A stretch of 64,000 bases of DNA from an uncultured Bacteroidota bacterium (GTDB lineage Bacteria > Bacteroidota > Bacteroidia > UKL13-3): the NCBI GenBank assembly GCA_903883965.1, contig CAISCU010000054.1, positions 1 to 64,000 on the forward strand, in the 5' to 3' direction. Shown piece by piece: positions 39,263-45,064 of the stretch (its first letter is position 1; the number at the start of each line of letters is the position of its first letter). The notes under the pieces were generated by a model. That model ran no database searches and was not told where the DNA came from. It worked only from the letters and a program-made list of their open reading frames with translations. Both the position numbers and the translations under genes were made by a program.

Positions 39263-40909
39263 TTATTTTAATTCACTCAATACTTTTTTTGCATTCACAT
39301 TTTCTGGGTCTAAATCCAAGACCTTTTTGTAATGCTCTCTTGCTTTTGTTTTGCTATCTGCTAGTTTATCACGTACCAAATAATAATAGCCAAGGTAGCT
39401 GTATGCATTTACTAAATCCTTTTTCCATTTCTCTTTGTTTGCTTCAAATTTTACAGCATCAGCAGTTTGCAATTCAATGTACTTGTCCATTAAAGGTTTT
39501 GGTAAATCAGTTTTTGATTCAGGGTCTAATGCCGATAAACTCATACCTCTCCAATAATAAGCATCTGCATAGTCAGCCTTCATTTCGTTTACTTTAGCAA
39601 AAGCGGAGTCAGCATCGTTATATGCTTTGCCAAAATAATAGGCTCTACCCATTAAGTAATAATCAACAACAGTTACCTTTTTAGCCAAACCGATGTATTT
39701 CTTAAACATATCGCCAGCATCTTTAAATTTCTTTTGTTTGTTTAACAGTTTTGCAATGTCAGCATACACTTCAACTTGAGATGGATCAATAGTCAATGCC
39801 ATACTCATATGCGCCGAAGCCAAAGAATCTTTTCCAACAACTTTTGATTCCAATCGGCCTAAATACAAATAGTCTGTTGCTGTAATTTTACTGGTATCTG
39901 TTTTACTGAAATAATAATTCAATGCTTCCAAGCCAGTATTTGCTTTGGCAGTATCTGTTTTGGTTGCAATTGTTTCGTAAACAGCATAAGCTTTTAACTT
40001 GTAAAGTAAGATGTTCTTTTTGTCGGTCTTTTGAATTTCATCAATTTTTTCAAATGCCGATTCATAGTCTTTACTCAAGAATAAAATTCTGGCAAATCTA
40101 ATTTGGTTAGCAGTGCTGGGCTCTGAATTGTTTAGGTAATTTGAGTAAGCTTCTTTTGCCTTGGCAAAATTACGTTTTGCATAATGCAGTTCTGCCTGGT
40201 ATTTCCAGGCTGAAGCATAATTAGGGTCTTTTTCAAAAGCCCTATTTAAGTCTGTTTGTGCAGCTTCGTAATTTTTAACCCTTAACCAAATAACAGCAAC
40301 CCTCGAATAAGCCTTAGGATTGTTTGGCTCCAAAGCAATTGCCCTTTCATAAAATGTAGCGGCATTGCCACCATCATTTCTTTCAAGGTAAACATCACCA
40401 GCTGCAATTAAAAAACTATAATTCTTTTTATTCTGCTCATAGCCCATAACAACTAATTGTTCGGCCGAATCAAGCATTTTATCTTGTGCATTGTTCACCA
40501 TTGCAGAAGCAACCAATTCCAAAGTTTGAATATCCGTCACAACCCCATTTCTGGTTTTACTAAAAGACAAAGCCTTGTTAAATTGTACCAGTGCTAGGTC
40601 TTTTTTTCCTTCCATCAACTTCAATTCTCCCAATCCGGCATAATTGCTTGCATGAGTAGGAGCGTTACTGATTCCATTTTGATAGGTCATTTCTGCAGAA
40701 TCCAATTGGATTAAATTGGTATAAGTCTGACCTAGATAATAATACAAAATACCATTTGTAGGTTCTTGTTGAATCATTGATTTAAAAATGCTCCTGGCTT
40801 GTTCATATTTTTCAAAATCCAAAGCTTTCATACCCGCTTCAAGTTGCTGGGCCCTTAAACTTTGAAAGTTCAATAATAACAAGGCTAAAATGACATAAAT
40901 GGTTTTCAT
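39263..40909 (-). CDS. Periplasmic tetratricopeptide-repeat protein
   Basis: The 548-residue protein has a signal peptide (MKTIYVILALLLLNFQSLRAQ, cleavage near residue 21) and is filled by TPR units over nearly its whole length. Clear ones include MKALDFEKYEQARSIFKSM, GILYYYLGQTYTNL, NYAGLGELKLMEGKKDLAL, PKAYSRVAVIWLRVKNYEAA, ASAWKYQAELHYAKRNFAKA and the last one ending EHYKKVLDLDPENVNAKK. It probably works as a scaffold in the periplasm or at the outer membrane. It is ten bases downstream of the PstS-like gene and thus in the group behind the TonB system. A terminator closes the unit. Confidence 0.85.
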   Translation of the reverse strand: MKTIYVILALLLLNFQSLRAQQLEAGMKALDFEKYEQARSIFKSMIQQEPTNGILYYYLGQTYTNLIQLDSAEMTYQNGISNAPTHASNYAGLGELKLMEGKKDLALVQFNKALSFSKTRNGVVTDIQTLELVASAMVNNAQDKMLDSAEQLVVMGYEQNKKNYSFLIAAGDVYLERNDGGNAATFYERAIALEPNNPKAYSRVAVIWLRVKNYEAAQTDLNRAFEKDPNYASAWKYQAELHYAKRNFAKAKEAYSNYLNNSEPSTANQIRFARILFLSKDYESAFEKIDEIQKTDKKNILLYKLKAYAVYETIATKTDTAKANTGLEALNYYFSKTDTSKITATDYLYLGRLESKVVGKDSLASAHMSMALTIDPSQVEVYADIAKLLNKQKKFKDAGDMFKKYIGLAKKVTVVDYYLMGRAYYFGKAYNDADSAFAKVNEMKADYADAYYWRGMSLSALDPESKTDLPKPLMDKYIELQTADAVKFEANKEKWKKDLVNAYSYLGYYYLVRDKLADSKTKAREHYKKVLDLDPENVNAKKVLSELK

Positions 40910-40918
40910 GATGAATGC

Positions 40919-41848
40919 TTATTGTGTTAATTCGATGGTTCTGATGGCGGCCCTTGAAGGAACCAATCCTGATTTTAAAATAATTCTTTGTCCTTGGTCG
41001 CCTGAAATAAAGCTAGCAAAGCCTGTGCCAAGCCCTGATTTAGCCTCTCTACTCACTAAAAATACTTCTCTCCAAAAAGGATATTGTCTCAAGTGAATGT
41101 TAGCCTGAATGGGTTTCCATGTAATGCTTTCGTAGTTGATTTTTTTAGGAACTATATCCGCAACTTTAATTTGTTTGTAAAAGTATTTTACCAAACTATC
41201 ATCTGGGTCACTGATCCAGCTAATTCCAATAATGCCTATTGCATGGTTATTTTTTTCTACATAACTCACCACTTCTTTGTTTGAATTGACAGCAAAACAT
41301 TGTTTGCTTAATTGCTTATTCAATCCTAAACTATCTGATAAAAGGCGAATGGCACCAGAGGCAGGATTGTCAAAAACAACCTGAATTTGGCCTTGGTGTT
41401 TGGGGTTAATTTGATTCCAATTGGTAAAAGTGCCGTTTAAGATTTGTTTGATTTGACCAACATTGAATAGGGTATCTTTATTGGATTTATTTAAAATAAA
41501 TGCAATGGCATCAGATGCAATTTTAATAGACCTTGAACGACTAATTTTTTGCTCTTTGAGTTGATTTTCTTCGTCAGCATTCATTTTTCGTGTCACAAAT
41601 GCCATGCGAGCACTGTCTTTTAAAACCAAATCAATGGCATGTTGTTCGTTTGTAAAAATAAGGTTTATGTGCGCGTTAGGATACAATGACTCAAAAACAT
41701 CTTTTTCAGCCTCTGCAATTGGCCTGAGGCTTTCATCACAACTAACAGTAATGTTACCAGAAGTTGGCGTGTCAATTGCTTTTGGCTTATCGTCATTACA
41801 AGATGCAATGATTAAAAATCCCAAAACTATAAAAAGAAATTGCCTCAT
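40919..41848 (-). CDS. PstS-like substrate-binding lipoprotein
   Basis: The 309-residue protein has a lipoprotein signal (FLIIASC, Cys 17) and matches the PstS family: GNITVSCDESLRPIAEA, a SAR..AFVTRKM segment, IKIASDAIAFILNKSN, LNGTFTNWNQINP, DNPASGAIRLLSD and GISWISD. These are the strands and the phosphate-loop region of phosphate-binding proteins. However, the pstC, pstA, pstB and phoU genes are not nearby. The gene overlaps the small membrane protein by four bases (ATGA) and lies in the group behind exbB-exbD-exbD-tonB. Another role (sensing, or capture of phosphate or another anion at the outer membrane) is possible. Family call is good; ligand is inference. Confidence 0.82.
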   Translation of the reverse strand: MRQFLFIVLGFLIIASCNDDKPKAIDTPTSGNITVSCDESLRPIAEAEKDVFESLYPNAHINLIFTNEQHAIDLVLKDSARMAFVTRKMNADEENQLKEQKISRSRSIKIASDAIAFILNKSNKDTLFNVGQIKQILNGTFTNWNQINPKHQGQIQVVFDNPASGAIRLLSDSLGLNKQLSKQCFAVNSNKEVVSYVEKNNHAIGIIGISWISDPDDSLVKYFYKQIKVADIVPKKINYESITWKPIQANIHLRQYPFWREVFLVSREAKSGLGTGFASFISGDQGQRIILKSGLVPSRAAIRTIELTQ

Positions 41849-42012
41849 GATTTATAAAATCGAAACAGTCTAATGAAACCATAAACAACCAAAGCTGCGG
41901 CAACTACATTTCTAGTTGTTTCGCTCATTTCAGGCAGTATAGGATAAACAAATACCATTATTCCCAAAACAATGTACAATACACCCATAATGGCATGCAA
42001 ATAACGGATCAT
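41845..42012 (-). CDS. 55-residue membrane protein upstream of the PstS-like gene
   Basis: This short gene starts at ATG 42012 and ends in a TGA that overlaps the PstS-like start (ATGA). Reading the minus strand gives MIRYLHAIMGVLYIVLGIM for the first 19 residues, then a hydrophobic stretch to YPILPEMSE, then TTRNVVAAALVVYGFIRL and RFYKS. It is a two-helix membrane protein: helix one at about 7-26 and helix two at about 35-50, with basic ends. A purine-rich AGAAAGGAAA lies about 10-15 bases before the ATG and can serve as ribosome-binding site. Hydrophobic pattern, RBS and start-stop coupling argue that it is real. No family is recognised. Confidence 0.72.
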   Translation of the reverse strand: MIRYLHAIMGVLYIVLGIMVFVYPILPEMSETTRNVVAAALVVYGFIRLFRFYKS

Positions 42013-42053
42013 AATTTGTTTTTCCTTTCTGAATATTGCTTCATTTATTTCAA

Positions 42054-42118
42054 CAAAAAAAACCTGACTTATTCAACAGCAATTGCTATAGCAATTACAT
42101 GCAAAATAAGCCAGGTTT
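42054..42118 (-). terminator. Terminator after tonB
   Basis: Arms 42060-42073 and 42105-42118 pair over 14 bases on the minus strand (AAACCTGGCTTATT with AATAAGTCAGGTTT, one G-U pair), followed by a T-run. Inside the 31-base loop is a perfect 16-base palindrome, AATTGCTATAGCAATT. It separates the tonB operon from the small membrane protein and PstS-like genes, at least in part. Confidence 0.78.
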
Positions 42119-42125
42119 GTTCAAA

Positions 42126-42923
42126 TTAGTTTAATTGGAATCTGATCGGTAAAGTGAATTTAACGTATACAGGTTTACCATTTTGTTTACCAGGTGTCCA
42201 TGGTGGCATTGATTTAACAACACGCAAAGCTTCTTCGTCCAATCCCCAATTGAGTTTTTTACCTACTTGTTCCAATTGAGAGATTTTACCATCAGAACCC
42301 ACCACAAAGGTTAAAATTACTTTTCCTTCAATGCTGTTTTCTCTAGCCAAAGGAGGGTATTGAATGTTTTTACTCAAGTATTTGTACATTTCTTCTGCGC
42401 CTCCTGGAAATTCAGGCATTTGCTCTGCAAAAGTCATAATTTCAGGAGAATCTCCGTCACCATCACCTTCAACCAAACTTGCATCTACTCCATTTGGATC
42501 ACCTTCTACGGTTGCTGCACCAGCATCTTTGTCCTTCATGTCTTCTTGTGCAGGTGGTGGCTCGTCTTGAGGAACTTCTTCATCAGGCTTAATTTCTGGA
42601 GGAGTAAACTTTACCGTACTTTTAAGTGGAGGAGGAGGTTCAGTAGGAGGGGGTGGTGGTTCGTTTTTATCAATTGGTGGCGGTTCTTCTAAGGTGTTTA
42701 CCTCAGTAACTTTTACCTCATTTTCTTTAGGAATTTTTGATTTGATATAATTGATAATTACAGGAGCAGAGATACAGGTAGTAAACAACAAGATAGAGAA
42801 TACAATTCCCTTCAGGGTGTTTTCATCGCTTTTTTTGCGAAGCACATAAGCTCCATATGATTGATTTCTACCTTGAAAGATGAGATCAACCCATTTATTT
42901 TCGAAAATGTTAACTTTAGCCAT
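42126..42923 (-). CDS. tonB: Energy transducer TonB
   Basis: The 265-residue protein has a cytosolic N terminus (VDLIFQGRNQSYGAYVLRKK), one membrane helix at about residues 38-58 (GIVFSILLFTTCISAPVII), a proline-rich periplasmic spacer (EPPPIDKNEPPPPPTEPPPPL), and a TonB C-terminal domain from about residue 165 (MPEFPGG, YPPLARENSIEGKVILTF, KSMPPWTPGKQNGKPV). MPEFPGG before the domain is usual in Bacteroidota. TonB passes the energy of the ExbB/ExbD motor to outer-membrane receptors. It is the last gene of the exbB-exbD-exbD-tonB unit, 11 bases after the second exbD, and a hairpin terminator follows. No TonB-dependent receptor gene is in the window. Confidence 0.94.
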   Translation of the reverse strand: MAKVNIFENKWVDLIFQGRNQSYGAYVLRKKSDENTLKGIVFSILLFTTCISAPVIINYIKSKIPKENEVKVTEVNTLEEPPPIDKNEPPPPPTEPPPPLKSTVKFTPPEIKPDEEVPQDEPPPAQEDMKDKDAGAATVEGDPNGVDASLVEGDGDGDSPEIMTFAEQMPEFPGGAEEMYKYLSKNIQYPPLARENSIEGKVILTFVVGSDGKISQLEQVGKKLNWGLDEEALRVVKSMPPWTPGKQNGKPVYVKFTLPIRFQLN

Positions 42924-42934
42924 GTCTTGATCTT

Positions 42935-43588
42935 TTATTTAACTGCCATTGCGGTTTGAATCAATTCCTTTTCAATATCAGTAATATCAACAATTGCATA
43001 CCTTCCAATATTGCAAATCAACATTTCATCTAAAATATCAACCAAGTTTTTGTATTTGGCCTTATCATCTGCTTTGATAACGACAATTAAAGCATCTTTG
43101 TTGTTCTTGATAGCAGAAATATTTGCACGCATGGTAGCTTCATCAATTTGATTCAATCTGTACATTTGTTTATAGATTGGAATTGAATCTAAGTTGTTGA
43201 ATCCTTTAGCTGCAAGTAGTTCTCTATTTTTTGTCAATAGGGTAGAACGTATACCAGCTTTACTAAAATCAGTAATGATTGGGGTTTCTGGTTCTCCTGT
43301 CTTTTCGTTAATGAAATAATAAACAATCTTGTCGTTTTCAGTCAACAATACGGTTATTGCTTGAGATGCTTTTACCTTGGTTTTATCAACTTCTTCAACT
43401 TTGTCCTTAACGGGCATGTTGATTTCCATTGTTTTTGGTTTGTTCATGGAAGTGGTCAACATGAAAAAGGTAATGAGCAAAAAGCCCAAATCTACCATGG
43501 GTGTAAAGTCTACACGGGTAGATAGTTTCTTGCCTTTTGGTTTACCGCCTTTTTTATGGCCACCGCCACCGCCTTCTATTTCTGCCAT
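42935..43588 (-). CDS. exbD: ExbD/TolR family biopolymer transporter (second copy)
   Basis: The 217-residue protein has a glycine/lysine-rich N terminus (EGGGGGHKKGGKPKGKKLS), one membrane helix with the conserved aspartate that carries protons (MVDLGFLLITFFML, Asp 33), and a periplasmic domain that ends KADDKAKYKNLVDILDEM. It forms the motor with ExbB. The periplasmic part is longer than in E. coli ExbD (141 residues). It differs strongly from the first copy, apart from the helix. It is seven bases after that copy and 11 before tonB. Confidence 0.92.
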   Translation of the reverse strand: MAEIEGGGGGHKKGGKPKGKKLSTRVDFTPMVDLGFLLITFFMLTTSMNKPKTMEINMPVKDKVEEVDKTKVKASQAITVLLTENDKIVYYFINEKTGEPETPIITDFSKAGIRSTLLTKNRELLAAKGFNNLDSIPIYKQMYRLNQIDEATMRANISAIKNNKDALIVVIKADDKAKYKNLVDILDEMLICNIGRYAIVDITDIEKELIQTAMAVK

Positions 43589-43595
43589 AGTTAAA

Positions 43596-44198
43596 TTATT
43601 CTACCGGTTCGGTATTTAAATTGGTTATAAAATTAAATCGGTTTACTTTTTTATCCTGTAAGGTTGCAATCACTTGCTTTACAATTGGATAATTGGTTTC
43701 CTGATCACCTTTAATGGCTACGCGAACATTGTTATTTACCAAACGAGACTGCCAAATCCAATCAGCCAGCTCATTGTTCAATGAATCGGCAGGTATGCCT
43801 GCTTGTTGAATTTTAGCTCTTTCTTCTGTTTTAAGTGCAAGCAATTGTTTAAGCTGCCCAAATGGAACCCCAAAACTTGACATCAAAGAAAAGCTTTTTA
43901 TTTCTTCAGGAGAAAATGGAACCTGCTTCAAAGCACTCATTTTTTTGATGAGTTCTTCTTTGTATTGCTGCCCTTCCAAATCAAAGAACACTCTACCGTC
44001 TCCGGCAATAGTGATGGTCATGATATCGATATCTGGCAATGGTACTTCAGCTATTGATGAAGGTGCATTAACAGTTACCGGTTCGTCCGGTTTAAATTGC
44101 GTTGCGAGCATAAAGAACGTCAGGAGCAAGAATGCTACGTCTGTCATAGCTGTCATGTCCACAGAGGTACTCTTACGCGGCACTTTAACCTTTGGCAT
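43596..44198 (-). CDS. exbD: ExbD/TolR family biopolymer transporter (first copy)
   Basis: The 200-residue protein has a basic N terminus (MPKVKVPRKSTSVDM), one membrane helix with the conserved proton-carrying aspartate (MTDVAFLLLTFFML, Asp 20) and a periplasmic domain with ITIAGDGRVFFDLEGQQY, typical of ExbD. Residues about 100-150 form an insertion relative to E. coli ExbD. The pair of different ExbD proteins in one operon is frequent in Bacteroidota; the motor may contain both, since ExbD works as a dimer. It is 41 bases downstream of exbB. Confidence 0.93.
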   Translation of the reverse strand: MPKVKVPRKSTSVDMTAMTDVAFLLLTFFMLATQFKPDEPVTVNAPSSIAEVPLPDIDIMTITIAGDGRVFFDLEGQQYKEELIKKMSALKQVPFSPEEIKSFSLMSSFGVPFGQLKQLLALKTEERAKIQQAGIPADSLNNELADWIWQSRLVNNNVRVAIKGDQETNYPIVKQVIATLQDKKVNRFNFITNLNTEPVE

Positions 44199-44239: not shown

Positions 44240-45064
44240 TTATTTATGCTTTTCGGCAAAAGTTTGAACAATGCTAAATCCAGCTTCATCGATGGTATAT
44301 GTAATTTTATCGATTTTAGTTGTAAATACATTGTACATGATAATTGCAATTGCTGAGTTTCCGATACCCAAAGCAGTATTGATCAAAGCTTCAGAAATAC
44401 CATTCGCCAAACCTACTGAATCTGGAGCACCACCTGTTCCCAATGCTGAGAACGCACGAATCATACCCAATACAGTTCCTAATAAAGCAATCAAAGTAGA
44501 AACCGATGCCATGGTTGCAATAATAACCAAGTTCTTTTCTAACATTGGCAACTCAAGAGTTGTAGCTTCTTCTAATTCTTTTTGAATAGCCAAAACCTTT
44601 TGGTCTTTGTCCATACCTGAAGTAGCTTCCATTTCTTTGTATTTAGCCAAAGCAGTTCTAACAACGTTAGCTACAGAACCTTTTTGCTTGTCGCATTCAG
44701 CGATTGCTGCATCTACATTGTTAGCAGAAAGATGACCTTTCACTTTTCTAACAAATGATTCAGCATTTCCTGTACCCTGAGCTTTTGAAATTGTTAAGAA
44801 TCTTTCAATTGAAAAAGTTAAACTCATCAATACCAAAGAAAGCAAGATTGGTACAATAAAACCACCTTTGTAAATCAATCCCAAAACATGACCAACACCT
44901 TCTTCTACAGGGTGGTTTGCAGGGTCTCCACCTTGAAAATTAGATGAGTTACCCAATACAAATTTGTAAATCAAAATACCGGTAATTACCAGAATTGGAA
45001 TAGCGAAAGAAGCGAATTGACTCTTTAATGCGCTTTCTTTTTGAGGAGCTGCTACCTTGTTCAT
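44240..45064 (-). CDS. exbB: ExbB/TolQ/MotA family proton channel protein
   Basis: The 274-residue protein has three or more membrane segments: near 20-38 (FAIPILVITGILIYKFVLG), about 68-88 (GGFIVPILLSLVLMSLTF), 175-200 (LVIIATMASVSTLIALLGTV) and 225-250 (GISEALINTALGIGNSAIAI). The segment LLGTVLGMIRAFSALG is the family signature, like GTVWGI in TolQ. With the two ExbD copies and TonB it makes the proton-driven motor of the inner membrane. The first gene of the unit, it lies 114 bases downstream of nuoN. On the minus strand TTG, 19 bases and TTTTTTTG precede the ATG, a weak promoter match. Confidence 0.93.
   Translation of the reverse strand: MNKVAAPQKESALKSQFASFAIPILVITGILIYKFVLGNSSNFQGGDPANHPVEEGVGHVLGLIYKGGFIVPILLSLVLMSLTFSIERFLTISKAQGTGNAESFVRKVKGHLSANNVDAAIAECDKQKGSVANVVRTALAKYKEMEATSGMDKDQKVLAIQKELEEATTLELPMLEKNLVIIATMASVSTLIALLGTVLGMIRAFSALGTGGAPDSVGLANGISEALINTALGIGNSAIAIIMYNVFTTKIDKITYTIDEAGFSIVQTFAEKHK

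Follow-up and report, generated by a model that had tools for sequence, protein, structure and literature searches.

TonB systems drive much of the nutrient uptake in Bacteroidota, and ideas of what their motors consist of are mostly carried over from Escherichia coli. Two described systems stand closest to the locus considered here. According to the accessible parts of its description, disruption of tonB2 in the TonB2 locus of Riemerella anatipestifer strongly lowers hemin uptake (PMC4446302), and excerpts of the work on the Vibrio vulnificus TonB2 system report that all six of its proteins are needed for siderophore uptake (PMC6957404). A TonB-ExbBD system, at a locus that may or may not correspond to the present one, was highly expressed in all samples in the available sections of a 2021 transcriptome of Flavobacterium psychrophilum (PMC9723704). 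Here we examine a gene of 55 codons (the small gene; its product, the small protein) that lies between a tonB-like gene and the gene for a PstS-like lipoprotein in a 64,000-nucleotide stretch of DNA from an uncultured Bacteroidota bacterium (the window; GenBank assembly GCA_903883965.1, contig CAISCU010000054.1, positions 1 to 64,000).

A small membrane protein gene under purifying selection

The small gene (41845–42012, minus strand) runs from position 42012 down to 41845 and translates as MIRYLHAIMGVLYIVLGIMVFVYPILPEMSETTRNVVAAALVVYGFIRLFRFYKS. A first-pass annotation of the window, made from its letters alone, had pointed to this 55-codon frame without stating its strand, and had described two hydrophobic helices, a purine-rich ribosome site and an ATGA overlap with the PstS-like gene. 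These features were all recovered. A purine-rich stretch, AGAAAGGAAAAAC, lies upstream of the gene, the 3' end of the gene shares ATGA (41845–41848) with the start of the PstS-like gene, and an AlphaFold2 model places helices at 2–22 and 31–54 with a mean predicted local distance difference test score (pLDDT) of 89.9.

The small gene is a real gene under purifying selection. All five alternative frames across its 168 nt are interrupted, by 1 to 5 stops each, and the frame is unbroken in both of the closest relatives, the congeners G001 and G003. The nonsynonymous (dN) and synonymous (dS) divergences are 0.024 and 0.174 against G001 (ratio 0.14) and 0.123 and 1.118 against G003 (ratio 0.11; Fisher p 6e-8 for the G003 counts), and neither ratio is near 1. 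The neighbouring tonB differs from its G003 counterpart with a dN of 0.006 and a dS of 1.111; by these values the small gene is clearly constrained, though faster-evolving than tonB. A spurious or non-coding open reading frame (ORF), which has the short length of the gene as the sole point in its favor, is ruled out by these ratios and by the conservation of the frame and of its slot across the phylum (see below).

The small protein belongs to an unnamed family of two-helix membrane hairpins with members of 55 to ~90 residues. Four residues are near-invariant in 44 members (Y13 in 40, G17 in 42, Y44 in 42 and R48 in 41), and the window protein has all four, has the predicted hairpin and is encoded between tonB and the PstS-like gene. 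The length of 55 residues given by the first-pass annotation holds here and not for most relatives, which carry an additional charged N-terminal arm of ~18 residues (LEEIREKRxxKV...); G000, G001 and G003 are without the arm. A putative 11-codon mini-ORF (MKQYSERKNKL; 42009–42044, minus strand), read from the sequence and the alignment, has a TGA that overlaps the ATG of the small gene, and its own ATG aligns with the ancestral start ATG of the longer form in G002, a genome of the same genus. At one locus (L071 927–1434, from G076) the small gene is present in two tandem copies between tonB and pstS.

Membrane helices can be oriented by the positive-inside rule. Lysine and arginine are more numerous in the two tails combined than in the loop in 44/44 members, and the loop contains at most one of these residues in 36/44, an excess that by this rule predicts that both ends of the small protein would be cytoplasmic (N-in/C-in). 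Searched against the PDB with Foldseek, the hairpin model had no hit at E ≤ 0.001 and 14 hits at E ≤ 10, as expected for a two-helix hairpin, and PHROGs gave no match. At E ≤ 0.01, 0 NCBIfam families matched the window protein, and the commonest family hits only 3/44 members. Neither Pfam nor NCBIfam has a family that reaches its cut-off on the window protein, and no Pfam family does so on ten further members with known scores.

Distribution, gene order and the partner lipoprotein

A conserved frame is present in relatives, beside pstS-like genes. A search with the single sequence found the small gene in 58/97 related genomes at E ≤ 0.1, and a profile built from the 44 members found it in 74/97 at E ≤ 0.01 (33/53 genera), with a gap between the weakest accepted match (E ~1e-6) and the next (E 3e-3). 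The gene is mostly single copy per genome. In the window's own family it is present in 55/58 genomes; of the three that lack it, two (G043 and G054) show a PstS-like match, and the third (G049) lacks both genes. All 74 bearers in the 97-genome sample have a PstS-like gene somewhere in the genome. When 39 other families were represented by one genome each, with a PstS-like threshold of E ≤ 1e-15, 19 had both genes, 19 had neither, 0 had the small gene alone and 1 had the PstS-like gene alone (p 3e-10, uncorrected for relatedness or tree shape); in that one genome (G072) a frame resembling the small gene is visible by eye. The small gene is co-inherited with the PstS-like gene, which can itself stand without the small gene, as in the Prevotella-type loci discussed below.

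The same linkage is seen phylum-wide. In a sample of 395 genomes, the small gene matched at E ≤ 1e-3 in 143, and a PstS-like profile, searched independently, gave matches in 145. Measured against 150 listed PstS-like places in 131 genomes, at least 98 of the 143 small genes end no more than 600 nt upstream of a same-strand PstS-like gene, at a median distance of 24 nt, for a chance expectation roughly estimated at about 0.01. Among 80 named loci from GTDB, selected by the similarity of their TonB, 50 have the order tonB-small gene-pstS (including Mucilaginibacter, Pontibacter, Hymenobacter, Daejeonella, a Pedobacter and Prolixibacteraceae), 2 have tonB-small gene (one of them a metagenome-assembled genome labelled Chitinophaga pinensis), and 8 have tonB-pstS without the small gene.

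Two tandem tonB-like genes precede the small gene at some loci (L157, L161, L164, L172, L174, L177, L180, L186, L199, L202 and L210), which carry Pontibacter, Hymenobacter and Solirubrum labels.

In the window the small gene is part of a conserved seven-gene order on the minus strand, exbB-exbD-exbD-tonB-small gene-pstS-like-TPR. The order begins with a gene for an ExbB/TolQ/MotA-like proton channel protein (44240–45064), continues with the genes for ExbD-like protein 1 (43596–44198), ExbD-like protein 2 (42935–43588) and a TonB-like protein (TonB_C; 42126–42923), and after the small gene has the genes for the PstS-like lipoprotein (PBP_like_2; 40919–41848) and, last, for a tetratricopeptide repeat (TPR) protein with a hydrophobic N-terminal segment (39263–40909). 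The whole order also occurs outside the window's class (e.g., L224–L226, L229, L230 and L232–L240). The first-pass annotation had spoken of the small membrane gene and the lipoprotein gene as a pair; their adjacency is conserved, and the unit is the seven-gene order.

The lipoprotein (lipobox IIAS-C17) has the PstS fold (Foldseek to PDB 4gd5, E 2e-21, TM score 0.91; profile E 1e-30) and scores 99.2 bits against the TIGR02136 cut-off of 206.6, which leaves it outside that family. The 4gd5 motif SREDGSGT (R-x-D-G-S-G-T), whose Arg we take to contact phosphate, aligns to FDNPxS, and the Arg position is occupied by Asp160 in 40/40 family members; a further residue, Asp38 in the first loop, is present in 39/40. 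In the genome, whose assembly of 55 contigs is reported to be 100% complete, no match to PstC (TIGR02138) was found at E ≤ 1e-5, where 14/14 control genomes have one, and no PstB above cut-off was found among many weaker ABC ATPases. The invariant Asp in place of Arg and the PstC result suggest that the lipoprotein probably does not feed a phosphate permease and is no phosphate importer, so that the PstS-like label of the first-pass annotation describes the fold and probably not the function. Through the small gene, which is easily deleted, one can ask concretely why a substrate-binding-protein fold adjoins a TonB motor with no Pst permease detectable here.

The small gene had also been said to join the TonB unit to pstS, which agrees with the gene order and, as a statement about transcripts, is doubtful for the window. 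Between tonB and the small gene, folding predicts a terminator-like hairpin followed by T8 (42055–42118, minus strand), and the segment 42030–42125 folds at −34.3 kcal/mol (z −5.45; 0/200 shuffles as stable). This hairpin is retained in G001 and G003, and in our reading of the alignment G002 has a different inverted repeat in that position, with T-rich sequence after it. Hairpins followed by T are also present between tonB and the small gene in relatives with a long gap; in other relatives the small gene starts a few bases from the tonB stop or overlaps tonB. The general terminator scan is without the tonB-small gene hairpin of the window, the stem of which exceeds the pattern of that scan, and the scan of relatives misses long stems, the window's hairpin included, so that a result of 'None' does not mean absence. 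A sigma-70 promoter scan gave no more sites than in shuffles and was not used. Because the hairpin and T8 separate it from tonB, the small gene here probably shares a second unit with the pstS and TPR genes or is under attenuated read-through.

Possible roles of the small protein

We propose, with a probability of about 40%, that the small protein is an inner-membrane accessory subunit of one Bacteroidota TonB system and docks the PstS-like/TPR module to the motor. The proposal starts from a real, selected gene that encodes a predicted hairpin, is placed between tonB and the PstS-like gene and is co-inherited with the latter; from these findings we infer that the small protein resides in the inner membrane, physically binds the motor or the lipoprotein, and has a docking role. 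The hairpin would span the inner membrane twice, its two termini cytoplasmic and the short turn between its helices periplasmic. Within the membrane the small protein would bind the ExbB-ExbD-TonB motor complex, and it would dock or position at the motor a periplasmic accessory module made up of the PstS-like lipoprotein and the TPR protein. Selection, the tonB-small gene-pstS order, the co-occurrence with the PstS-like gene and the positive-inside counts support this role, as do the Ttp proteins of Vibrio, a precedent for essential extra proteins in a TonB system. A wider picture, which we consider questionable, is that of a phylum-wide TonB machine with a hitherto unrecognised accessory module, in which a charge-inverted PstS-fold lipoprotein receptor and the TPR protein would be coupled by the two-helix subunit, physically tying the motor to a periplasmic ligand-sensing or shuttle protein, beyond outer-membrane receptors alone.

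Several observations weigh against the docking proposal. For the remaining 45 of the 143 small-gene matches in the phylum-wide sample, adjacency was not found among the listed PstS-like places; many of these have weak E-values, and some are perhaps false. Eight of the 45 were re-examined with their flanks. In G235 the small gene adjoins a weaker PstS match, in G200 a further TonB-like gene lies between the small gene and PstS, and G378 and G100 have exbB-exbD-exbD-tonB-small gene without PstS; in G392, G110, G276 and G444 none of the motor, tonB or PstS neighbours was found beside the small gene. Twenty of the 80 named loci, eight of them Chitinophaga records, have TonB with neither a small-gene nor a PstS-like neighbour (L195 was counted as TonB only despite a weak small-gene match, E 4e-3). 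The small gene is absent from 8/8 Prevotella/Bacteroidales-type loci that keep tonB-pstS (L181, L194, L196, L198, L201, L207, L208 and L209, from Prevotella, Xylanibacter, Prevotellaceae and one other Bacteroidales record). There are also natural breaks in the linkage. Genus g6 and G009 retain the small gene after tonB and have the PstS-like gene on a different contig. The small gene of g5, G006, G014, G083 and G091 accompanies pstS-TPR, with no tonB found upstream of it. In genus g14 no small gene adjoins the neighbouring tonB and pstS; a homologue of it lies elsewhere, next to a gene that resembles cdsA by eye. Because the breaks go both ways (g6 and G009 versus g5 and the others), linkage alone does not name a binding partner, and because g14 and the Prevotella-type loci lack an adjacent small gene, a motor-lipoprotein link is possible without one.

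The gene that follows the small gene at the g6 loci (L042, L010, L012, L014, L017, L018 and L028) encodes a histidine kinase, not pstS. The L042 kinase has HisKA and HATPase_c, with similar ends in the other g6 loci, and the PstS-like gene of this genus is located elsewhere, in L088 following a gene that matches TPR_1 and CsgG.

The two kinds of break bear differently on two alternatives to docking. The small protein could be an assembly or stability factor for ExbB/ExbD/TonB, presumably comparable to CydX, that is unrelated to the lipoprotein and has neighbours that merely share its operon. Its retention behind tonB in g6 and G009, where the PstS-like gene has moved away, argues for such a factor, as does the overlap or spacing of a few bases between tonB and the small gene in many genomes. 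We regard this role as rather doubtful, given the genomes in which the small gene accompanies pstS-TPR with no tonB found upstream, the tracking of PstS-like presence over the 39 families, and the terminator-like hairpin that parts the small gene from tonB in the window. That same hairpin, preceding the small gene, would fit a protein that serves the lipoprotein/TPR side only (e.g., by keeping the PstS-like protein in the membrane, exporting it or assembling it), independent of the motor. The ATGA overlap in the window, the position directly upstream of pstS in at least 98/143 cases and the PstS-like gene in 74/74 bearers point the same way. We find a role confined to that side unlikely, since g6 and G009 keep the small gene behind tonB and not with pstS, and tonB is part of the conserved order across the phylum.

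A very improbable identity is that of a DUF308/HdeD-type stress membrane protein, present here by happenstance. DUF308 (PF03729) matches 13/44 members at E ≤ 0.01 (best 2.7e-6), a weak profile similarity over the hairpin that covers at most positions 1–50 of the 73-position model; repeats of such a kind are readily resembled by two-helix hairpins. The window protein scores 22.4 bits against a gathering score of 25 bits, and among ten further members scanned, 4 list DUF308 at E ≤ 0.01, the highest at 24.9 bits. We rejected membership because none of the 11 members with known scores reaches the gathering score; the member with E 2.7e-6 is listed without a bit score and may exceed 25 bits. Moreover, an unrelated gene would not fit the conserved slot.

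Relation to known systems

The first-pass annotation had called the pairing of a tiny membrane protein with a substrate-binding lipoprotein undescribed, and we found no description of the small protein in the literature searched, a weak negative in that most subscription papers lie outside its coverage. The available text of a 2025 survey of force transducers contains no occurrence of PstS (PMC12204202). The PstS phosphate-binding proteins (TIGR02136; 4gd5) share their fold with the neighbouring lipoprotein, and differ from it in the family score, the phosphate-contact Arg and the permease, as detailed above.

The motor-TonB-PstS order itself is already known from the Riemerella anatipestifer TonB2 locus; in the accessible parts of that publication, as distinct from the genome, no small gene is described between tonB2 and the substrate-binding gene (PMC4446302). 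The Vibrio vulnificus TonB2 system likewise has extra operon-encoded proteins (TtpB2, TtpC2 and TtpD2), one of them with TPR motifs, but its six named components, as described in the excerpts available, include neither a PstS-like lipoprotein nor a two-helix protein of 55–90 residues (PMC6957404). The Vibrio system is the nearest functional precedent for the role proposed for the small protein. Against this background, what appears to be new is a conserved small subunit in an otherwise known type of TonB locus.
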